This document shows positions 32,729-41,794 of a stretch of 64,000 nucleotides of DNA, one piece after another. The position numbers and the translations under genes are program-made. Each line of letters opens with the position of its first letter. Positions within the stretch are counted from its first letter, which is position 1. Source of the DNA: Streptomyces lomondensis (GTDB taxonomy: Bacteria > Actinomycetota > Actinomycetes > Streptomycetales > Streptomycetaceae); the NCBI RefSeq assembly GCF_014651035.1, contig NZ_BMWC01000008.1, positions 62,001 through 126,000 of the forward strand. Reading direction: 5' to 3'. The notes under the pieces are model-generated. The model worked only from the letters and a program-made list of their open reading frames with translations. It made no database searches and was not told the DNA's origin.

Positions 32729-32816
32729 GGAGGATTCGCCTAGAGGCCTAGGGCGCACGCTTGGAAAGCGTGTTGGGGGCAACCCCTCACGAGTTCGAAT
32801 CTCGTATCCTCCGCCA
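32729..32816 (+). tRNA. tRNA-Ser (anticodon GGA), CCA encoded
   Basis: A class II tRNA with a long variable arm. The acceptor pairs GGAGGAT with ATCCTCC, the anticodon loop TTGGAAA gives GGA, and the T arm contains GAGTTCGAATCTC. G73 and CCA are encoded at the 3' end. It is divergent from the SRP RNA gene. Confidence 0.96.
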
Positions 32817-32873: not shown

Positions 32874-33035
32874 GTGTCTCAGACCTCGTTGTCCTGGTTT
32901 TTGTCCACTGCGGGTGCTTCCGGGGCTCCCCAGATGGCATCGGCGATCTTCCGGCTCCCGCCCCATGATCTGGTCGATGACACGATCCGGGACGCCGAGC
33001 ATGCCGCGCGTTCTCAGGCCCGCAAGACCCCGACC

Positions 33036-33239
33036 ATGGGCGTCCCGGGCCTGACCGCCGACGAGCGCGCGGAGTTCGAGAGGCAGGGCGGCGAGACCAC
33101 GCCTCTCAAGCGCATGGGCACGGGGGAGGAGGTCGCCGCCGCCGCGCTGTTCCTGGCCGCCGACGCCACGTTCACCACCAACGTCGAGTTCCCCGTCGAC
33201 GGCGGCTTCGCCCAGGGCCTGACGGGCGCCGGCCACTGA
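33036..33239 (+). pseudogene. remnant of a short-chain dehydrogenase/reductase (C-terminal third only)
   Basis: The reading frame ends with PLKRMGTGEEVAAAALFLAADATFTTNVEFPVDGGFAQGL, the classic SDR C-terminus (P-L-x-R-x-G-x-x-E-E-x-A-x-A-x-x-F-L-A ... V-D-G-G). The Rossmann half and the Tyr-x-x-x-Lys active site are missing, and sequence upstream in the same frame (from about 32886) is unrelated. It sits between the tRNA-Ser terminator and the CHAT operon. It looks like a gene scar from an insertion or deletion next to the tRNA. Confidence 0.7.
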
Positions 33240-33240
33240 T

Positions 33241-33255
33241 CGCCCGTCACGGGCG
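33241..33255. terminator. possible short stem-loop at the end of the CHAT operon
   Basis: CGCCC (33241-33245) and GGGCG (33251-33255) pair around GTCAC, immediately after the SDR remnant and the convergent operon end. It is short, so this is a weak call. Confidence 0.35.
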
Positions 33256-33257
33256 TG

Positions 33258-33596
33258 TCACCGGCGCGTGAACGTAAACGTGACCCCCGCCCGCCCCGCC
33301 AGCTCTCCCCCGGACCCGAGCAGCGACACCGTGCCCTTCGCGCTCACCTCGGCGCTGAACGTCACCTCGTTCAGTTGGAACTCGCCCCCGTGCTGGGGCA
33401 GGGAGGCGATCACGTCCTGCATCGTCGTGATGAAGTCGGCGAGGCGGGCGCGGAGTTCGTCGGCGGGGATCTCCGTACGTGCGGCCCGCCATTCCTCCAG
33501 GCGGCGCAGGGTGAGGCGGTCGGTGCGGCCCTGGTCGGTGTCCTCCAGGCCGAGGACGCTGATCGTCCGGGTGGTGTCAGGGGTGGGCTGGGGCAC
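33258..33596 (-). CDS. small Pepco/Trypco-like accessory protein of the CHAT operon
   Basis: The 112-residue protein has an N-terminal helical region (LRRLEEWRAARTEIPADELRARLADFITTMQDVI) and a C-terminal beta-rich domain ending KGTVSLLGSGGELAGRAGVTFTFTRR. That ending resembles the small 'peptidase co-occurring' (Pepco/Trypco) domains found beside proteases in NTP-dependent conflict systems. They are thought to act as adaptors or protease targets. GTG 33596 has GGAG 7 to 9 bases upstream. It overlaps the end of the CHAT gene by 20 bp, so it is the last gene of the operon. The family name is from memory and uncertain. Confidence 0.6.
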   Translation of the reverse strand: MPQPTPDTTRTISVLGLEDTDQGRTDRLTLRRLEEWRAARTEIPADELRARLADFITTMQDVIASLPQHGGEFQLNEVTFSAEVSAKGTVSLLGSGGELAGRAGVTFTFTRR

Positions 33597-34839
33597 GGGG
33601 TGTCTCCTCGAGTGTCGGGCGGACGTGGAGGCCGGGGTCGGCGTACGCGGCGTACGTGAGGCCGAGCGGGTTTCGTAGCGTGTAGAGCAGGTGCAGGCGG
33701 GACTCCAGGAGTGCTCTGCCCAGGGGGATCCTGCGGATGAGGAAGCGTTCGTACAGCGCCTTGGAGAACGCGGCGGCGATGTCGTCGGGGATCTCGGTCT
33801 CGGTGCCGATGAAGCCGCGGTTGCCGTTCATGAGGAAGAGGTACGGGAACGACGGCGCTCCCGGAGCTCGCATCCGGCCCGAACCGCAGGCGTTCATCAT
33901 CACCAGCGGCAGGTCGAAGTCGCGCAGGTCCCGGCCGGCGGCGAGGGCGACGAGGTCCGCGCCGAGGGCGCCCAGCGTGGTGCGCGAGTGGTGTCCCGCT
34001 CCGCTGAGCTCGATCTCGGCCGCGAGGGTGTCGTCCGAGCGCGTGTAGCAGTGGCAGGCGAAGTGCTGGACCTGGTCGGGCAGCTCGCGGCGGGCGCCGT
34101 CGAGGAGGAGCCGGGGGTCGAAGATCTGCTCGGCCAGGCCCGGTGCGCGCTCGGCGCCGTCGGGGTACGGGCCTTCGAGGTCGATGTGCGTGCTTCCGGC
34201 GCCGCTGAACCAGGCCAGTTCCTCGACGGCCCCTTCCAGGTGCTCGTAGTACAGGTAGCGGGCGGGGACGCGGCCGTGCGGGCCGGTGTGCAGCGCGAGG
34301 CCGCCGTGGACCGGGGCGGGCAGCATGGCGCGGCGCACCACGCACGAGAAGCCGACGAGGGTCCGGCAGGCGGCGATGAAGTCGCCCGGGGTCTCGACGG
34401 GCGCGCCGGGGAACATCCGGAACAGCGGCAGGAACTCCAGGGGCAGGAAACCGTCCCGGCCGCCGACGCACTCGACGAGCGGGGGCGGCAGTTCGGGGTT
34501 CATGCCGTAGGGCAGGGCGTTGTTCCAGAAGGACTGGAGTTCCTTGAGGACGGTCTGCTGTCCGCCGAACAGGATGAAGAGCAGGGTGCGGCCGAGGCCG
34601 TGCAGGCTCTGGAAGACCCGGTTGAGGTCCTTGTCCTCGACGGCGAACGCGGTGAGTTCGTCCTTGAGGCGGGTCAGCCCCCTGTCCAGTTCTTCGCGGA
34701 CCCTGAGCAGCGCGTCGCTGCCGACCAGGGTGGCACGCACGGGCGCGATACCCGGGCGCCCGGCGGTGAACTCCAGACGGGTCGCCTCGTCGGTGGTCAG
34801 GACGCGTACGGAGACGTCCGGCGGCCGTGCCTCGCTCAT
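33577..34839 (-). CDS. CHAT domain (caspase-like) protease
   Basis: The 420-residue protein has an N-terminal alpha-helical part and a C-terminal CHAT peptidase. The catalytic His263 is in VQHFACHCYT and the catalytic Cys318 is in MMNACGSG, with the usual spacing of about 55 residues. The later SFPYLFLMNGNRGFIGTE and SKALYERFL segments match the conserved CHAT C-terminal helices. CHAT proteases are caspase relatives that execute immune or cell-death responses, for example Craspase or gasdermin-activating systems. The ATG overlaps the stop of the upstream membrane-protein gene (ATGA), so it is tightly coupled. No gasdermin-like partner was recognised. Confidence 0.88.
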   Translation of the reverse strand: MSEARPPDVSVRVLTTDEATRLEFTAGRPGIAPVRATLVGSDALLRVREELDRGLTRLKDELTAFAVEDKDLNRVFQSLHGLGRTLLFILFGGQQTVLKELQSFWNNALPYGMNPELPPPLVECVGGRDGFLPLEFLPLFRMFPGAPVETPGDFIAACRTLVGFSCVVRRAMLPAPVHGGLALHTGPHGRVPARYLYYEHLEGAVEELAWFSGAGSTHIDLEGPYPDGAERAPGLAEQIFDPRLLLDGARRELPDQVQHFACHCYTRSDDTLAAEIELSGAGHHSRTTLGALGADLVALAAGRDLRDFDLPLVMMNACGSGRMRAPGAPSFPYLFLMNGNRGFIGTETEIPDDIAAAFSKALYERFLIRRIPLGRALLESRLHLLYTLRNPLGLTYAAYADPGLHVRPTLEETPRAPAHP

Positions 34840-37310
34840 GCGTCGCCTGTCGCCCCCGCCGGGGCCCGCACCTCTACCTTGAGGGCGACGACCTGGACGA
34901 GGTGGCCCGCCTGGTAGAGCTGGAACCACACCTCGTGGCCGCCCTCCTCCTCGGGCAGCCGGAACTCGAAGGCCGTCTGCCGCTCGTTCTCGACGAGGAG
35001 GTTCCTGCGCTGGGGCAGGGGGGTGAGCGTGGAGCTGTCGGCCATGGCGTCGAAGGAGACCGTGCGGGTGTCCCTGCCGCCCTCGACGCGGACCGGCTCG
35101 AAGACGAAGAAGTCCCGGCCCGGGGGACTCTCGACGACCGACGGGAGGTCGCCCGCGCGCGGGTCGCGCACGACGGAGACGAAGAGCCTCACCCGCTGCC
35201 CCGCCGGGGCCGTGACCGTGCCGCCCTCGGCCCGTACGTCCTGCTGCCCGCGGTCCAGCTCGATGGCGAGGTAGCCGACGAAGTTCGACAGGGCGGGGCC
35301 GGTCACGGACTCCTTCACGGAGGAGTGGATCGCGGCTCGGACGTCCCGCTCGAACTGCCGGTGGAGGGCCGTCAGATGCTTCTTCAGGTCTTCCTTCAGG
35401 CCTTCGCCGACGGGGCCGGCCGTCCGGCGGGCGACCTCCCGCGCGAGCAGGTTCAGGTCGAGTTCCCCGCCTGCGGCGCCGGCCGGGAACCGCAGGCCGA
35501 GTGCCGCGTACTCCTCCCGGACCGCCTGGCGTACGTCGGCGCGTACGCCCTCCCGCACTCGTTGCGCCACGAGGGCGGCGAGTTCGTCGAGCCGGGCGCC
35601 CTGGGGAAGCTCCGGCTCCTCCGGCCGGTGCCAGCCGGACCGGTCCGGGGGCTCGCCGCCGCTCAGCACGGCGGCCAGCCGGATCATGTACTGGTCCGAG
35701 GGATCCGCCGGCAGGGTGATGTGCAGTCGCTTCGCCAGGTCGTACCGGTAGACCTCGACCGCCTCCGCCTTGGTCTCGTACACCTCGGCCAGCAGCCTGC
35801 GCGCCTGCACGAGCGCGACCGCCGCCACGAGCAGCGGCCCTCCGACGAGCGGGGCGGGCCGCCAGTCCATGAAGTGGAAACCGCCGAGCCCGGTGAGCGC
35901 GACGAGCAGCCAGGCGCCTGCCGTGCACAGGGCGGCGGCGATGGTGATCCGCCAGACGAGGACGCCGCGTTCCCCGCGCCGCACCTGTCGCAGGACCGCG
36001 TCGGGGGTGACCAGGGCGATCCGGGGCCAGATCTCGTCGATGACCAGGCCGGTCGCGCAGGCGGTACGCCGATGGAGTTCGGTCACGGTGGCGGACAGGA
36101 GGGGGTGCAGGAGACGCTGCGGCCAGGTGGGGTCACCGCCCTGCAGCGAGTCCGGATCGCGCCGGCGATGCTCGCGCTCCCACTCGTCCTCCGGGGACGC
36201 CGACCGCCCTGGCCCGTACCCGTCATACGCGCGGGGCGGCCGGCCGGAGTAATACGGACGCTCGGCCCGCTCGCGTGCCCGCCGGGCCAGTTCGGCCGCC
36301 CAGCTCCACGGCAGCGACGTGCCCGTCCAGACCAGGACGGCGTACTGCGCCACCAGCAGGACGGCGCCGGCCGCGGCCAGCCGGCCGGCCCGCAGCAGCA
36401 ACTCGTCGGAGTCCGCCCCGCTCCACGGCGACCCGTGCGACATCGCCCACGCCAGACTGCCCAGCGGGACCAGGATCCCGGCGAGCTGTGCCCCGGGCGG
36501 AGCCGCCTGGGCGCCGGCGGTCCGCCGCCGCCGGGAGGCGGAGGCGAGGGACAGCACACCGGCGACGAGCAGCGGTCCGCCCACCGCGACACCGCCCGTC
36601 CACCACGCGGCCACGGTCTCGCCCCGCAGCGCGAACCGCGCCACCACACCGCCCGCGCCCAGGACCGCCGTGGCCCCGAACACCTTCGGATACCGGTCCT
36701 CGGCCGCCCAGTCCTGCGAGTCGGACAGCCAGAAGCCCGCGGCCAGCGCCACCATCGCGCCGCCCACGGCCCAGGCCGCCCACAGGGGCCCCTCGGCCGC
36801 GCAGCGGGCGGTGAGCCAGGCGCCGCACGCCTCGGCCAGGGCGAAGGCGGCGATGGTGAGGATGTTCTCGGAGGGGGTGTAGCCACTGGCCGAGCCGTAG
36901 CGGCCGCCGGCCTCGGCGGTGCGCCAGGACGCCGCGCCGGCCAGCGCGAGGAGCAGGCCTCCGGCCGCCCAGGCCGTCGCGTACTCCTGGCCGCGGGTCA
37001 GTCTGGCGATGATCAGGGTCAGTTCGGCCACCAGGGCCGTCGCCAGGATCCCGGTCGTGTACAGGTGCAGCGTCCGGGTCTCCGCATGACGAGTGAACGG
37101 GCGACCGCTCCGGACGCGGGCGACGGCCGCCTCGGCGGACCACCCGGCGGCCGCCGCGAGCACCAGCCAGCCGCCGAGCAGCCACAGACCGCCTGCCGGA
37201 CCGCCGTCCACGGGAACGAGTACGGCGCCCGCGCCGCCCGCGGCGACCAGGAACGCGGCCGTCGCGAAGAGGGCGAGGCCCCGCGTCGTGCCCGTGCTCC
37301 CCGCCATCAC
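34836..37310 (-). CDS. polytopic membrane protein with C-terminal beta-sandwich, part of the CHAT operon
   Basis: The 824-residue protein has about ten hydrophobic helices in residues 1-340. An Arg-rich cytoplasmic linker with Tyr and Gly (about 340-385) and a further helical pair near 440-500 follow. The soluble C-terminal half contains a helical region rich in Arg and Glu (VREGVRADVRQAVREEY...) and a terminal beta-sandwich (TVTAPAGQRVRLFVSVV ... WFQLYQAGHLVQVVALKVEV). I do not recognise a named family for the whole. The C-terminal part resembles beta domains that accompany CHAT proteases. It probably links an envelope signal to the cytoplasmic protease. Confidence 0.7.
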   Translation of the reverse strand: MMAGSTGTTRGLALFATAAFLVAAGGAGAVLVPVDGGPAGGLWLLGGWLVLAAAAGWSAEAAVARVRSGRPFTRHAETRTLHLYTTGILATALVAELTLIIARLTRGQEYATAWAAGGLLLALAGAASWRTAEAGGRYGSASGYTPSENILTIAAFALAEACGAWLTARCAAEGPLWAAWAVGGAMVALAAGFWLSDSQDWAAEDRYPKVFGATAVLGAGGVVARFALRGETVAAWWTGGVAVGGPLLVAGVLSLASASRRRRTAGAQAAPPGAQLAGILVPLGSLAWAMSHGSPWSGADSDELLLRAGRLAAAGAVLLVAQYAVLVWTGTSLPWSWAAELARRARERAERPYYSGRPPRAYDGYGPGRSASPEDEWEREHRRRDPDSLQGGDPTWPQRLLHPLLSATVTELHRRTACATGLVIDEIWPRIALVTPDAVLRQVRRGERGVLVWRITIAAALCTAGAWLLVALTGLGGFHFMDWRPAPLVGGPLLVAAVALVQARRLLAEVYETKAEAVEVYRYDLAKRLHITLPADPSDQYMIRLAAVLSGGEPPDRSGWHRPEEPELPQGARLDELAALVAQRVREGVRADVRQAVREEYAALGLRFPAGAAGGELDLNLLAREVARRTAGPVGEGLKEDLKKHLTALHRQFERDVRAAIHSSVKESVTGPALSNFVGYLAIELDRGQQDVRAEGGTVTAPAGQRVRLFVSVVRDPRAGDLPSVVESPPGRDFFVFEPVRVEGGRDTRTVSFDAMADSSTLTPLPQRRNLLVENERQTAFEFRLPEEEGGHEVWFQLYQAGHLVQVVALKVEVRAPAGATGDA

Positions 37311-37396
37311 ACCCCCGTCGGCCGCTCCGAGTCCGGCAACTCATCGACCAGTATGGCCAGTTGCGGGACCGCCCGCGACGCCCCGGACGAAGGCGC

Positions 37397-39019
37397 TCAT
37401 GGCGTGGTACTGGGGATCACGCAGTTCTTCGGCTGGGGCCGGCCCGTGGGCCAGCCCAGGCCGACGAACTTGAGGGTGCCGTTGCCCTTCGTGCCCGGGT
37501 CCAGTTCGACGATCGCGACCGGTTTGTCGTAGGCGTTGCCGCCGGTGGTCAGGCAGATCAGGCCGCTGGTGCCCGCGACGCGGTGGCGGGACTGGAGGAG
37601 CGACCACTGGCGGCCGACGTCCTCGCGCGAGGGGACCGTCGTCTCGGGGGCGCCCTGCTGGGCCTGGTGGAGGGCCTTGCCGATGGTGAGGAGGCCGTCG
37701 TGGACGAGCATCGTGCGGGAGTCGTCCAGGTTCGGGGTGGCGCCGAGGTCGATGCCCTCGGCTTCCGTCGCGGTGATCTGGCGGCGCAGGGCGTCCAGGG
37801 CCGCCTTCGGTTCGGTGAGGTACTGGGGGAGGTCCCGCTCGGCCGGCTCCCGGTCGTGGGTCGCCCGCCACTTCTTCGACCAGGCGGCCAGCTCGGTGGT
37901 CCAGGCGGCGGGGTGTGCGGGGGCCGCGTACTGCACCGTGACCTTCGCAGTGCCGTCGTCGCCGCGGAGCTTCGCCCAGTCCTGCTCCTTCATGTCCTGG
38001 CGCAGCGAGGCCGCGTCGGAGCCGCTGACGATGGTGTAGTGCCGGCCCTCACAGCCCACCTGGGCGAGTTTGAGGGCGAAGATGCGCAGGTGGAGGGTGC
38101 GGCCCGCGAAGTAGACGGTGTCGGCCTCGGAGTCGCAGATGTTGTTGGCCGTCTGGGTGAACTGGTTGCCGGTCGAGCCCGCCTCGTCGATGGACGGGGA
38201 CTCGAAGGACATCGCGGCGGGGCCGGCCGGGCCCTTCTCCTTGATCCGGCTGAACGCCCTCGCCAGCGACTCGTTGTAGCCGTCGGGGCGTTTGTCGTAG
38301 ACCAGGACCGTCTTGAAATTCTGGCGGCCCCGTTCGCCGTTGAAGCCGGCCAGGGCCTGGGCCGCGTCGTTGTTGGTGGGGAGGATGCGGGCCAGGCCCG
38401 GGAAGCGCAGCTCGGCCATGCCGTCGGCCCGGTCCTTGTTGGCGATCCGGTCTCCGCTGATGCGGGCGGCCAGCACCGGGATCCTGTTCTCGGTGAGGCG
38501 GGCGACGGCCGCCTCCGTGGCGGCGAGGCTCAGGTTGAAGCCGGTGACCGCGCGCAGCCGGTCCTCGGGCGAGGCCGCCATCCGCAGCAGGGTGTCGACG
38601 ACCTTCTCCTGACGGCCGTAGTCCTGCCCGGGGTTGGCCAGCACCAGCCGGATCTTCGGTGGTTCTCCCTCGCCGGAGTTGGCCTGCCGCTGCCCCAGGT
38701 AGGCGCCCTGGAGGTCGCTGCGCATCTGCCGGCGCAGCGCCTCGCGGTCCGACTGGAGCGGCAGCATCATCGCCACCGTGACATGGGGCTGCTTCTCGAT
38801 CCTGCGGTTCTCGCGGGCGATGGCCCGGGCCACGTCGGCGATCTCCGGGGTGCCGAAGTCGTAGCCCTCGCCGTTGACGCCGACGCACTCGCCCTCGATC
38901 CGCTCGACACCGTCGGCGCAGGTGTCCGGCTTGCGGACGAGTGAGGTGGTGACCGCGATGCCCGCGATGACCAGCACCGCACCTAACACCGAGTAGAGGA
39001 TCTTCTTCCATCTGGGCAT
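37397..39019 (-). CDS. membrane-anchored periplasmic-binding-protein-like receptor
   Basis: The 540-residue protein has a single N-terminal membrane helix (residues 6-28) without a lipobox. The extracellular part matches the Leu/Ile/Val-binding, type I periplasmic-binding fold: TVAMMLPLQSD at the first strand, QQ-type GAYLGQRQANSGEG, LVLANPGQDYGRQEKV, IPVLAARISGDRI, and FKTVLVYDKRPDGYNESLARAF. Two pairs of cysteines (about 34/46 and later) may form disulfides. There is no ABC permease or ATPase nearby, so it is unlikely to serve transport and may be a ligand sensor. It lies 5 bp downstream of the NTPase gene stop. Confidence 0.78.
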   Translation of the reverse strand: MPRWKKILYSVLGAVLVIAGIAVTTSLVRKPDTCADGVERIEGECVGVNGEGYDFGTPEIADVARAIARENRRIEKQPHVTVAMMLPLQSDREALRRQMRSDLQGAYLGQRQANSGEGEPPKIRLVLANPGQDYGRQEKVVDTLLRMAASPEDRLRAVTGFNLSLAATEAAVARLTENRIPVLAARISGDRIANKDRADGMAELRFPGLARILPTNNDAAQALAGFNGERGRQNFKTVLVYDKRPDGYNESLARAFSRIKEKGPAGPAAMSFESPSIDEAGSTGNQFTQTANNICDSEADTVYFAGRTLHLRIFALKLAQVGCEGRHYTIVSGSDAASLRQDMKEQDWAKLRGDDGTAKVTVQYAAPAHPAAWTTELAAWSKKWRATHDREPAERDLPQYLTEPKAALDALRRQITATEAEGIDLGATPNLDDSRTMLVHDGLLTIGKALHQAQQGAPETTVPSREDVGRQWSLLQSRHRVAGTSGLICLTTGGNAYDKPVAIVELDPGTKGNGTLKFVGLGWPTGRPQPKNCVIPSTTP

Positions 39020-39024
39020 GCCCG

Positions 39025-41193
39025 CTATCTCCTTCGCCGGAGCTGTTCGGTGCAGGTGCAGCGCAGCAGGGGCTGCTCGTTCTCCGCCAGGCCGCTCCAG
39101 TCCGTCGCCGTCCTGCTGAGCAGGCCCGCGCCGTCGAAGTCCATGATCGAGAGCAGGTCCAGCAGCTTGGCCAGGGTGCGGGCCGTCTCCTTGCCGGTCG
39201 GCCGGGTCCGCTCCTCGCACAGCCACACGGCGTGCAGCAGCTGGTCGACCGTGCGGCGCAGCGGCGGGCCGTCCGCCGGTACCAGGCCCTGGGCGCGCTC
39301 CCGCCGGGCGTCCGCCCCGCCCGGGTAGGGCGCCTGGGCGATCTCCAGGAGCTCGGCGCACCACTGGCGAGGGCGGCCGGGGAGGGTGGCGGCGAGGTGG
39401 CTGACGACGTCGTCGGCGCCGCCGGACACCAGGTGGTGGTTCATCCGGTGCGCGGTGAGGGAGCGGAAGGCGCCGTCCGGCGACGGGGTGTCCTCCCCCT
39501 CCGCCGCGCGTGCCGCGTAGTGGTCGCGCAGCAGGTGGTGGTCGGCGTACCAGGCGGCGCCGCCGGGGAGCAGTCCGTACAGCCGGTGCACCAGCAGCTG
39601 GCGCAGGCCGAAGTCGCCGATGAAGTGGCGTTCGCAGGTGGGCCAGCCGGTGTCGGTGAGGAGCCGGGAGACGTGGTGGGCGGTCAGGTGGTGGACGTGG
39701 CCCGACTGGTGGTGGCGGAGCAGGACGTCCGCGCACTCCGTGTCGTGGGCCACCGACAGGTGGGTGAGGAGGTCGAGCCAGTGGGCGTGGTGCTCGGTGG
39801 GGAGCCGTACCGGTAACTGGTCCAGGACCAGCTCCCGCAACAGCACCTCCGCGACCGGGCGTTCCTCGTCGCCGGGGAGGCGCAGCGGGGCGTCCAGGAT
39901 GTCCCGGTCGTTGGCGTCCGGCGGCATGCGGAAGGCCGCCGCGGCGGCGGCCAGGCGGATCACCGTGTGCGGCCGGCCGCCGCTCAGCCGGGCCACGGCG
40001 GCGTCGATGCGGCGGCGGTTCGCACCGCCCTCCGGCTCGGCGCGCTGCTGTCTTCGTACGGTCTCGCGGCGGAGCTGGTCGCCGGTGAGCAGCGGCATCC
40101 GCAGCAGGAGCACGCCGTCGGCGAGCGGGGCCCGGTCCGCGCCCTCGTCGGTGCGCCGGGACCAGGCGGGCGGGGCGCCGTCGGCGGGCCGGTACTCCGC
40201 CGGGGGCGTCGCCTCGCGGGGCGGCAGGCCGCCGTGCAGGAAGGCGCCGCCGTCGGAGCGGCGGGCCGTGCCCACGATGACGACGCGGTCGCGCTGCCCG
40301 CCCCGGCGGTCGGTGAGCACGGCCCGCAGCAGCTGCTCGCCCAGGGACGATTCGGCGTGGTCCAGCAGCAGGCCCGGGCGGCCGACCCGGCGCAGCCAGC
40401 CGGCCGGGCCGGCGTACGCCGCCTCCAGGTCCTCGCGCAGGGCCCGGAACAGGAAGCTCTCCGCGACCTCCCGTGCCTCGCCCCCGGCCTGGAAGTCGGC
40501 GGCGAGGATGCGCAGCCCGATCCGGGGCTGGCCGGCCGCGCCGGGGTAGGCGCCGTAGATCCGCTCCAGTTCCGCCCTGCCCCGGGGAGCGAGCCGCTCG
40601 AAGACGGCGTCCAGCAGGGCGTTGCTGACGGCCGCCGAGTACGGGTCGAGGGCCTGCCCGCCCAGGGTCGTCAGCAGGTTGCGGATGGCGCCGCGCAGCA
40701 CGCCCCGCCAGAAGTCGCCGGCGCCCAGGCCCCGCAGGCGCTGCTTCTGGGGCAGGTTCTCGTAGCGCTCGGCCTCCGTGGCGACCGCCTCGGGCGTGCC
40801 CTCCGCGACGCCGGTGGCGATCACGGCGAGGCCGGTGAAGAGCCGGGGGAAGGCGAACGAGCCGCCCGTGCCCTGCCAGGTGCACAGCCGCCGGGCGACC
40901 TCGACCAGGGCCTCGGTGGCGGCCGAACGGGCGCCCGGCTCCGGGTCCGCGCGGTCCGCGTACACCGGGGAGGCGCAGTCCAGGTGGATCACCGGCACCT
41001 TGGCGGCGAAGCGGTCCCGCACGGCGCGCAGCAGCCGGCCCTTGCCCATGCCCGGGCCGCCGGTGAGCAGCACCACGGGCAGGTCGGGGCCGTACAGCGG
41101 GTCCGTGCCGGCACCCGACGGTGCCCGGCCGAACAGCCGGGCGAAGAAGTCCTCCTCGCCGAGGAGTTTCTCGAAACCCAGTTCTTCACACAC
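39025..41193 (-). CDS. P-loop NTPase (STAND/AAA-like), first gene of the CHAT operon
   Basis: The 722-residue protein has a Walker A-like loop GGPGMGKGRLL at about residues 45-55, with Gly where Ser or Thr normally follows the Lys. A Walker B-like GLLLDHAESSLGEQLL is near 280, and a sensor-like VVIVGTARRSD follows near 310. The remainder is a long helical region with many His and Arg residues and a final CTCTEQL tail. Such NTPases act as switches in conflict systems, oligomerising after a signal. GTG 41193 has a GGGGGG ribosome-binding site; the upstream extension is not native. The Gly after the P-loop Lys is unusual and could lower nucleotide turnover. Confidence 0.72.
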   Translation of the reverse strand: MCEELGFEKLLGEEDFFARLFGRAPSGAGTDPLYGPDLPVVLLTGGPGMGKGRLLRAVRDRFAAKVPVIHLDCASPVYADRADPEPGARSAATEALVEVARRLCTWQGTGGSFAFPRLFTGLAVIATGVAEGTPEAVATEAERYENLPQKQRLRGLGAGDFWRGVLRGAIRNLLTTLGGQALDPYSAAVSNALLDAVFERLAPRGRAELERIYGAYPGAAGQPRIGLRILAADFQAGGEAREVAESFLFRALREDLEAAYAGPAGWLRRVGRPGLLLDHAESSLGEQLLRAVLTDRRGGQRDRVVIVGTARRSDGGAFLHGGLPPREATPPAEYRPADGAPPAWSRRTDEGADRAPLADGVLLLRMPLLTGDQLRRETVRRQQRAEPEGGANRRRIDAAVARLSGGRPHTVIRLAAAAAAFRMPPDANDRDILDAPLRLPGDEERPVAEVLLRELVLDQLPVRLPTEHHAHWLDLLTHLSVAHDTECADVLLRHHQSGHVHHLTAHHVSRLLTDTGWPTCERHFIGDFGLRQLLVHRLYGLLPGGAAWYADHHLLRDHYAARAAEGEDTPSPDGAFRSLTAHRMNHHLVSGGADDVVSHLAATLPGRPRQWCAELLEIAQAPYPGGADARRERAQGLVPADGPPLRRTVDQLLHAVWLCEERTRPTGKETARTLAKLLDLLSIMDFDGAGLLSRTATDWSGLAENEQPLLRCTCTEQLRRRR

Positions 41194-41326: not shown

Positions 41327-41794
41327 CTATTGCTTGCGGTCCGACGCCGGCCAGACGTAGGGGAGGTCGTCGGGTACGCCGGGGAAGAGCTCCGCGTACG
41401 TGGCCGGGTCCTTGCGGACCAGGGCCGAGCGGTGGCTGCGGTGGAAGCCGGCGTCGCCCAGCCAGGGCGGCAGTTCGCCCTCGGCGGCCAGCCGGGACTG
41501 GTCGCGGACCGGCGCGTGCGGGCGGGCGGCGGCGAGGTCGGCGACCAGGGTGGCCGCGCAGCTGTCCTGGTGGCCCCGTTCCCGCCAGACCCGGCAGATC
41601 TCCAGGCCGTAGCGGACCAGGGCCTCCTCGTACCCCGCCCACATCCGCACGGCCGGATGGCGGCGCCAGCCGTAGCCCGGCACGATCAGGCCGCGCAGGA
41701 CCTGCAACGCCTCGACCCGCTGCTTGCCGAGCCGCCGGCGGTCCAGGGCCAGGGCCGAGTCCCGGAAGCCGGGGTGGGGGAGGAAGGTCTGCAT
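41327..41794 (-). CDS. MSMEG_6728 family protein (pyrimidine-dimer-glycosylase-like)
   Basis: The 155-residue protein starts MQTFLPHPGFRDSALALDRRRLGKQRVEALQVL. This is the MSMEG_6728 pattern, related to the T4 endonuclease V/pyrimidine dimer DNA glycosylase family: the N-terminal LP-x-P and LD-x-x-RLGKQR motifs, and the WAGYEEALVRYG helix. An intact N-terminal residue set suggests a possible DNA-repair role, which is unproven. It lies on the minus strand, 17 bp downstream of the DUF4383 gene. Confidence 0.75.
   Translation of the reverse strand: MQTFLPHPGFRDSALALDRRRLGKQRVEALQVLRGLIVPGYGWRRHPAVRMWAGYEEALVRYGLEICRVWRERGHQDSCAATLVADLAAARPHAPVRDQSRLAAEGELPPWLGDAGFHRSHRSALVRKDPATYAELFPGVPDDLPYVWPASDRKQ

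Follow-up and report, generated by a model that had tools for sequence, protein, structure and literature searches.

The window analyzed in this study is a 64,000-nucleotide stretch of the Streptomyces lomondensis genome (contig NZ_BMWC01000008.1, positions 62,001 to 126,000), and five consecutive open reading frames on its minus strand form the locus described here. In the order of transcription, they encode a P-loop NTPase (39025–41193), a membrane-tethered receptor of the type-I periplasmic-binding (LIVBP/mGluR-like) class (37397–39019), a large membrane protein that we call MEMB (34836–37310, or 34836–37307 from its likelier start, the ATG at 37307), a predicted caspase-like CHAT protease (33577–34839), and a small partner protein, Pepco (33258–33596). 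The frames are spaced by 5, 86, −4, and −20 bp, in full agreement with the original prediction. The NTPase and its partner, the receptor, are treated below as one module, separate from the cassette of three genes that begins with MEMB. Beyond Pepco, on the plus strand, lie a remnant of a short-chain dehydrogenase (SDR) gene (32934–33239), which matches positions 186–235 of the 236-position profile PF13561 at 31.3 bits against a cut-off of 27, and the integration site tRNA-Ser(GGA) (32729–32816). Both flanking features had been predicted and are real, and the view of the locus as accessory was also right.

The domain identities proposed earlier were confirmed, for CHAT and Pepco by Pfam cut-offs, for the receptor by structure comparison, and for the NTPase by its modified P-loop. 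No Pfam match was found for the receptor, whose predicted ectodomain covers about residues 34–540. Its AlphaFold2 model (pLDDT 72.5) matched LIVBP/mGluR-type folds in a Foldseek comparison with the PDB (best E 1.9e-12; 648 matches at E ≤ 0.001), which backs the type-I periplasmic-binding fold. The receptor had also been described as lacking an ABC partner. Its same-strand neighbors here are the NTPase and MEMB, and the pair loci, checked by similarity to the window ABC ATPase w19840 alone and by reading of the loci, hold no conserved ABC partner; in 3 of 38 loci (L105, L117, L135), a relative of w19840 lies beside the pair in opposite orientation. A role for the receptor as a component of an ABC importer was therefore rejected.

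The P-loop of the NTPase reads GGPGMGKG, and its modified Walker A motif (GKG) is genuine. Among 20 aligned close NTPases, the window included, GK is followed by Gly in 14, by Ala, Arg, or Gln in four, and by Thr or Ser in two, and GKT or GKS is found in 17 of 19 more distant NTPases of such pairs. The window protein falls below all Pfam cut-offs; AAA_16 is matched in 13 of 20 members at E ≤ 0.01 (best E 3.2e-6). A candidate fusion of the same NTPase to a receptor in the paralogue P0007 was dropped, as the similarity was unconvincing (E 0.08).

The NTPase and the tethered LIVBP-like receptor constitute a widespread two-gene pair in Streptomyces, a putative sensor. Leaving out the window and S. 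olindensis, the two genes are neighbors at 39 of the 40 pair loci examined (37 of the 38 fetched and both of two more). A transporter-less LIVBP/mGluR-like receptor encoded directly behind a P-loop NTPase is a recurrent arrangement in this genus (37/38 loci). In 13 of the 19 nearest pair loci, the gene that follows the pair is transcribed in the opposite direction. This next gene usually varies from one locus to another; L107/L109, L118/L119, and L120/L121 are the exceptions, each two having it in common. The strand and variety of this next gene show no effector slot, and the idea of the pair as a sensor with swapped downstream effectors was rejected. An EACC1 gene upstream of the pair was considered and rejected as well, the small upstream gene examined in one distant relative proving to encode a PLDc_N protein. 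Two distant pairs (L137 and L139) have a large upstream gene, which encodes an NNH1-NACHT protein in L137.

MEMB, CHAT, and Pepco form a separable, co-conserved three-gene cassette. All three are present in this order at 15 of 15 cassette loci (13 CHAT loci from genome contigs, G067, and the window), which belong to 13 Streptomyces, one Paractinoplanes, and one Amycolatopsis. MEMB and CHAT overlap by 4 bp in 14 of the 15, and CHAT and Pepco overlap in all of them with the starts as chosen. The window CHAT protein (P0002) matches PF12770 at 35.8 bits (cut-off 24) over residues 257–387 of 420, and Pfam matched no second domain C-terminal to this region. The His263/Cys318 dyad had been called intact, and both residues are invariant in the alignment of 15 sequences, where their numbers are one lower; protease activity is predicted on this basis. 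The window Pepco protein (P0001) matches PF24393 at 71.7 bits against a cut-off of 27, in line with the earlier label of a Pepco/Trypco-like protein. Each of the two profiles is matched in 15 of 15 cassette members at E ≤ 0.01. At another locus (L170), the gene immediately downstream of Pepco encodes a protein with a C14 caspase domain.

The cassettes are sporadic. A search with the CHAT protein gave a strong match in 8 of 391 other same-genus genomes, and in a phylum sample of 396 genomes, two contained the cassette at E ≤ 1e-20, namely the window's own and G067. With three called genes per side compared, no two cassettes except those of the window and S. olindensis have a common flanking gene of more than 50% identity. 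The cassette of S. blattellae (G022/L147), which is without the pair, has in its vicinity the penicillin-acylase-side genes also found near that of the window, so the cassette sites are not all unrelated. Some cassettes adjoin integrase- or transposase-like genes as judged from translations, and the integrase of S. olindensis was confirmed with Pfam. Twenty PADLOC models were each matched by one of 72 flank genes, a count made without a control set, and no clear defence island was seen. This compact CHAT–Pepco–membrane cassette is not named as a system in any profile library that was searched.

MEMB is an 823-residue polytopic protein consisting of an N-terminal helix bundle, a variable charged linker (about residues 350–405), a two-helix hairpin, a helical stalk, and a C-terminal Ig-like beta-sandwich (about 671–818). 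Hydropathy segments number eight in the window copy and 7 to 11 over the 15 copies, and a low-confidence predicted structure (pLDDT 68.9, pTM 0.41) has 12 membrane-length helices and a C-terminal beta domain, in keeping with the predicted membrane protein with a soluble beta domain. The Ig-like match of the C-terminal domain is weak (best E 1.6e-3 in structure comparison, none at E ≤ 0.001). No Pfam family was found in the window copy, seven families appear at E ≤ 0.1 in one of the 15 members each, and assignment to a family by sequence was abandoned, there being no convincing match in Pfam or the PDB. The linker carries 16 basic and 15 acidic residues, and loop charges leave the topology undecided. 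At two distant CHAT loci in the fetched set (G196 and G054), the 5′ gene matches the C-terminal half of MEMB (E 3e-12 and 1e-9).

The membrane part of MEMB evolves fast, and the Ig part more slowly. Compared with S. olindensis, dN/dS (bootstrap 95% interval) is 0.85 (0.56–1.22) for residues 1–349, 0.71 (0.49–1.09) for residues 406–670, and 0.21 (0.08–0.45) for the Ig part; the values for CHAT and Pepco are 0.15 (0.08–0.24) and 0.16 (0.08–0.32). The control membrane gene w41812 gave 0.28 (0.11–0.66), an interval that overlaps that of MEMB. In ten pairs compared, divergence of the membrane part exceeds that of the CHAT protease by a factor of 1.4 to 4. The Ig part is under no special constraint in more distant pairs, its distance exceeding that of CHAT in 8 of 10. 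The divergence of MEMB is the pattern expected of an arms-race sensor; as its dN/dS lies below 1, relaxed constraint would also fit.

The DNA from the receptor stop codon to the tRNA-Ser integration site (32876–37393) is a tRNA-linked variable slot; it contains the SDR remnant and the cassette here, and different cargo in relatives. In three relatives, the pair occupies this dnaX/tRNA-Ser site, and the receptor and the tRNA are separated by other DNA. Homology with two genomes (G026 and G006) ends at 32875 or 32876 and restarts at 37394, that with strain NRRL S-455 ends at 32815 and restarts at 37380, and that with S. olindensis on the tRNA side ends at 32875. S. olindensis carries an integrase and pSAM2-type replication genes beside tRNA-Ser. 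In NRRL S-455, the pair is at the dnaX/tRNA-Ser site and the cassette is on another contig; a 125-bp match between the end of that cassette and the window takes in about 28 bp of the 3′ end of the window receptor gene. The modules may therefore have come together on more than one occasion; alternatively, the last receptor codons may derive from the cassette.

The junction between the receptor stop codon and MEMB (37311–37396, minus strand) holds a conserved upstream element with the motif CATACTG (ATACTG at 37349–37354). In 8 of the 15 cassettes, ATACTG lies 20–110 bp ahead of MEMB, a count reached in at most 2 of 1000 mononucleotide-shuffled sets. This putative element travels with the cassette, including cassettes that lack the receptor, and transcription of the cassette probably starts from a promoter region of its own. 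A scan of the junction for sigma-70 consensus sites, the one promoter type it covered, found nothing, and no terminator-like site was found in 37250–37450.

According to the original prediction, the five genes are one unit in which an outward-facing receptor activates the CHAT protease through the NTPase. Close same-strand spacing, the arrangement kept in S. olindensis, and low dN/dS in the NTPase, receptor, CHAT, and Pepco are consistent with such a device, as is the report in Kaur 2020 (PMC7159879) of caspase domains followed, in the same protein, by TM and extracellular PBP domains. However, the pair is next to the cassette in two of the 15 cassette loci, those of the window genome and its sister S. 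olindensis at the same locus, and the cassette was found in none of the 40 other pair loci within the fetched 9–20 kb of each. Furthermore, among the 14 other cassette genomes, an NTPase relative (E ≤ 0.001) is adjacent in one, elsewhere in five, and undetected in eight, and the upstream element is common to cassettes without a receptor. The five genes are not co-conserved, receptor-to-CHAT coupling is unsupported, and a single five-gene device is highly improbable. The locus is probably made of two independent modules side by side, the receptor–NTPase pair and a membrane-anchored CHAT-protease conflict cassette in a variable slot.

Coupling might instead have arisen solely in this strain and S. 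olindensis, if the cassette landed behind the receptor stop codon and became the output of the pair through read-through or signaling. The shared strand, the 86-bp gap without a terminator-like site, and maintenance in two species would suit such recruitment, and in the available text of PMC12799240 unrelated immune systems repeatedly recruit nuclease–protease pairs; but the cassette retains its own upstream element, and one ancestral event may account for both sister species. We regard this as quite unlikely; if true, a caspase-like protease would be triggered in bacteria by a receptor for extracellular small molecules. Somewhat less unlikely, and still a minority reading, is that the cassette serves stress response or development in mycelial actinomycetes through its protease, and is not an immune or conflict module. 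The cassette was found here only in three genera of such organisms, PADLOC 2.0 profiles matched none of the five window proteins at E ≤ 1, and flank genes are mixed, with many metabolic functions among the 25 of 88 families listed. Against this stand the sporadic spread, mostly at different sites, the mobile-element neighbors of some cassettes, and the fast-evolving membrane partner, an overall pattern more like that of conflict genes. Collectively, the striking claim of a receptor-coupled CHAT device falls away, and two cleaner objects, the cassette and the pair, remain.

For the cassette as an independent module, the most likely mechanism, to judge from gene order and evolutionary rates, would have MEMB both sense the trigger and dock the protease. 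MEMB in the membrane may use its fast-evolving helix bundle to sense an event at the membrane or envelope, and its Ig-like domain, if cytoplasmic, would dock the CHAT protease, which Pepco may hold or license. Activated CHAT would then cleave a cellular or cassette target, possibly leading to cell arrest or death. The earlier impression that CHAT, Pepco, and a membrane partner resemble a conflict or suicide module still appears sound.

Compared to known systems, the cassette shows several likenesses. The TPR-CHAT protein of Craspase (Csx29) is reportedly a CHAT protease acting as effector in an immune complex; here a membrane partner is found instead, with no CRISPR effector or TPR match. As in Trypco/Pepco-type proteins, a small protein is encoded beside a peptidase. 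The name Pepco stands for peptidase-co-occurring, and no paper devoted to this domain was among the matches listed in a literature search. Trypco, in the source text available, is described with trypsin-like peptidases, unlike the Pepco–CHAT combination here. System 4 of Kaur 2020 (PMC7159879, as far as its available text goes) is a two-gene membrane-associated conflict system of EACC1 and a caspase that is prevalent in actinobacteria. It shares with the cassette its actinobacterial hosts and a gene order in which a caspase-superfamily peptidase comes after a membrane-associated 5′ gene, and the TM-PBP domains of some members are a further likeness. However, EACC1 is a single-TM domain, whereas MEMB is large and polytopic, ends in an Ig-like domain, and has no EACC1 Pfam match; in addition, the CHAT protein here is without a variable C-terminal domain, and Pepco is added. 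CanABC, in the available text of PMC12799240, differs in that CanA itself bears the Ig-like fold, which is on the membrane protein here, and in that CanC is a pro-nuclease, no nuclease family being matched in the cassette. CanABC and the cassette nevertheless have in common three genes, a protease of the caspase family, a presumed modulator of the protease, Ig-like folds, and transposases nearby.

The five consecutive minus-strand genes of the original prediction were all found as open reading frames in place: an NTPase (39025-41193), a tethered LIVBP-type receptor (37397-39019), a membrane protein (34836-37310, with a likelier ATG start at 37307), a CHAT protease (33577-34839) and a Pepco protein (33258-33596). 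The identities claimed for CHAT and Pepco were borne out, both proteins exceeding the Pfam cut-offs. The window's membrane protein and receptor had no Pfam match, and its NTPase had AAA matches below the Pfam cut-off only; AAA_16 was found at E≤0.01 in 13 of the 20 members of the NTPase alignment. None of the five proteins matched PADLOC at E≤1. The LIVBP-type assignment of the receptor agreed with its predicted structure (pLDDT 72.5, pTM 0.74), which had 648 PDB matches at E≤0.001 (best 1.9e-12), with LIVBP and metabotropic-glutamate-type ectodomains; since TM-scores in the best 50 of these matches were 0.38-0.50 by query and at most 0.68 by target, the match is a fold-class assignment only.

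The five genes are two modules, a membrane protein-CHAT-Pepco cassette and an NTPase-receptor pair. A search with the membrane protein in 199 genomes of the genus (own included) matched four other genomes, each with CHAT and Pepco downstream, and no receptor or NTPase match was present in the 17-19 kb fetched around these four loci. When a CHAT alignment was scanned against a collection of 84,980 species genomes, 13 loci were obtained, all 13 with the three cassette genes in order; the pair lay upstream only in S. olindensis. Counting the same cassette once where a genus-sample genome (G) and a fetched locus (L) coincided (G022=L147, G033=L148, G181=L154, G211=L152, G239=L146, G260=L145, G323=L151), there were 15 distinct cassettes, namely the 13 scan loci, G067 (L014) and the window. 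Because the scan detects close CHAT relatives only, this 15/15 linkage holds for the close CHAT clade and not for CHAT proteins at large.

The NTPase and the receptor were matched in 78 and 145 of the 199 genomes, respectively (own included). Pair loci were fetched from 38 of the 77 other NTPase-matching genomes (the 20 best and 18 picked from the remainder; L104-L141), and the receptor lay directly behind the NTPase in 37, the exception being L141, with no cassette nearby in any of the 38. At two further loci from cassette-bearing genomes (L200 and L201), the pair was adjacent in both and the cassette was at that place in neither. Among the 14 other cassette genomes, the NTPase adjoined the cassette in one (S. 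olindensis), was elsewhere in five (close relatives in G181, G260 and G323, distant ones in G033 and G780) and had no match at E≤0.001 in eight. Across Streptomyces, an NTPase and, directly behind it, a tethered LIVBP/mGluR-like receptor with no transporter form a conserved two-gene unit (37/38 loci). The coupling of receptor to CHAT in one five-gene device, as originally predicted, is unsupported, as the pair adjoins the cassette in the window and S. olindensis only, yet both modules are testable.

Receptor relatives were also seen elsewhere in the window's own genome, one fused behind a Ser/Thr kinase (L015:7922-10264; P0006) and one within a 965-aa protein without a Pfam match (L016:6383-9280; P0007). 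Two distant genomes have a large gene immediately before the pair (L137:4449-7664 and L139:4179-7385); it is an NNH1-NACHT gene in L137, and its L139 counterpart begins alike.

The dnaX-side tRNA-Ser(GGA) gene (32729-32816) serves as an integration site. Two genomes, G026 and G006, carry the dnaX-side genes and this tRNA on one side and the pair on the other, as in the window; their alignment with it ends at 32875 or 32876 and restarts at 37394, three bases past the receptor stop. NRRL S-455 also has the site and the pair; here the breaks fall at 32815 and 37380, and the CHAT cassette (93% identity) is on a different contig from the pair site. Between the breaks, G026 and S-455 have in common a set of four genes, which we read as roadblock-like (one member matches DUF4388 below cut-off), with an additional AAA-type ATPase in S-455; in G006, three opposite-strand genes are found there. 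In S. olindensis, the tRNA-side homology likewise ends at 32875, and a tyrosine integrase and a RepSA (pSAM2-type) gene adjoin the tRNA (L202:14807-17778). The breakpoints, the differing genes and this integrase/RepSA region therefore indicate a tRNA-linked variable slot, with the cassette as one cargo. The cassette of S. blattellae (G022/L147) sits in this wider neighbourhood too, with relatives of window genes 49555, 48954 and 46512 upstream of it, and the pair is absent there. The gene adjoining the NTPase (41327-41794) is assigned to PF03013, the pyrimidine-dimer DNA glycosylase family (77.7 bits), and is kept in the flanks of G026, NRRL S-455 and S. olindensis.

The S-455 cassette end has a 125-bp block in common with the window (107/125 identical); of the window receptor, this block covers some 28 bp at the 3' end, an end unlike that of other receptors. 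Because of this block and the divergent end, the last receptor codons may be cassette-derived, or the modules may have been adjacent before.

The cassette itself is compact. In 14 of the 15 cassettes, the membrane protein and CHAT genes overlap by 4 bp, L148 being the exception with a gap of 8 bp; with the starts as we chose them, CHAT and Pepco overlap in all 15. The CHAT His and Cys are invariant in 15/15. A CATACTG-containing element recurs upstream of the membrane protein gene; ATACTG was present in 8 of 15, against at most 2 in 1000 mononucleotide-shuffled sets, a comparison that is not an independent-sample test because the cassette sequences are partly related. In G085, Pepco was seen with a second peptidase type: the gene immediately after a Pepco gene is a short frame that partly matches C14 caspase (L170:1150-1881; 23.3 bits against a cut-off of 21.4). 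Another Pepco gene is present in the window's genome (G000:C11:88528-88746), on a contig different from that of the sole CHAT relative found at E≤0.001.

Hydropathy gave 7-11 segments across copies of the membrane protein. In its AlphaFold2 model (pLDDT 68.9, pTM 0.41), a helix bundle at the N-terminus is followed by a disordered linker, then a long helical hairpin and a stalk; the C-terminal Ig-like beta domain is modelled with better scores. In Foldseek, this domain had weak matches to CARDB, NBR1 and transglutaminase beta domains, the best at E 1.6e-3 and none at E≤0.001. The C-terminus is probably cytoplasmic because the helix count is even; loop charges were indecisive (16 basic and 15 acidic residues in the linker). 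Against S. olindensis, dN/dS was 0.85 in the membrane part, 0.71 in the hairpin-stalk part and 0.21 in the Ig part, compared to 0.15 for CHAT, 0.16 for Pepco, 0.16 for the NTPase and 0.25 for the receptor; a control membrane gene gave 0.28, with an interval (0.11-0.66) overlapping that of the membrane protein. Protein distances of its N-terminal part exceeded those of CHAT in 10/10 partly dependent pairs (1.4- to 4.0-fold), and the Ig part was less diverged than the N-terminal part in nine pairs, equal in one, and more diverged than CHAT in eight of ten. By these sequence comparisons, the membrane protein diverges faster than its partners. At two distant CHAT loci (31% and 34% identity), the 5' gene matches the membrane protein's C-terminal half, Ig region included; Pepco is present at one of them, G054, and the third gene at the other, G196, matched no Pfam family. 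The part that stays with CHAT is therefore the Ig-like region.

Linkage, conservation and rates only are established for the cassette. We propose that the membrane protein would serve as anchor and probable sensor, that its Ig-like domain would dock CHAT in the cytoplasm, that Pepco would modulate CHAT and that activated CHAT would cut a target, leading to arrest or death. The defence context is suggestive. Flanking genes more than 50% identical between cassettes were found for the window and S. olindensis only (three genes called per side), and these two were left out of a flank set of 72 genes from 13 loci (three per side; below 70 aa dropped). These matched 20 PADLOC models at E≤1e-8, each in one gene, several probably in the same gene, a count taken without a control set, and 88 Pfam families, the best 25 of which include many metabolic ones, one SUKH-4 immunity protein and one deaminase-type domain.

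Among the papers listed by searches of an open-access library, which lacks most subscription journals, none has a title and abstract describing the cassette or the receptor-NTPase pair, and a term search of PMC8195603 gave no match. The nearest published relative found for the cassette is System 4 of Kaur et al. 2020, which pairs a membrane 5' gene with a caspase and has occasional TM-PBP fusions; as described there, it differs from the cassette in its single-TM EACC1 5' gene and a variable domain C-terminal to the caspase. In CanABC (PMC12799240), a caspase with an Ig-like fold is complexed with a partner protein and activates a nuclease, and this system is a functional analogue of the mechanism proposed here.
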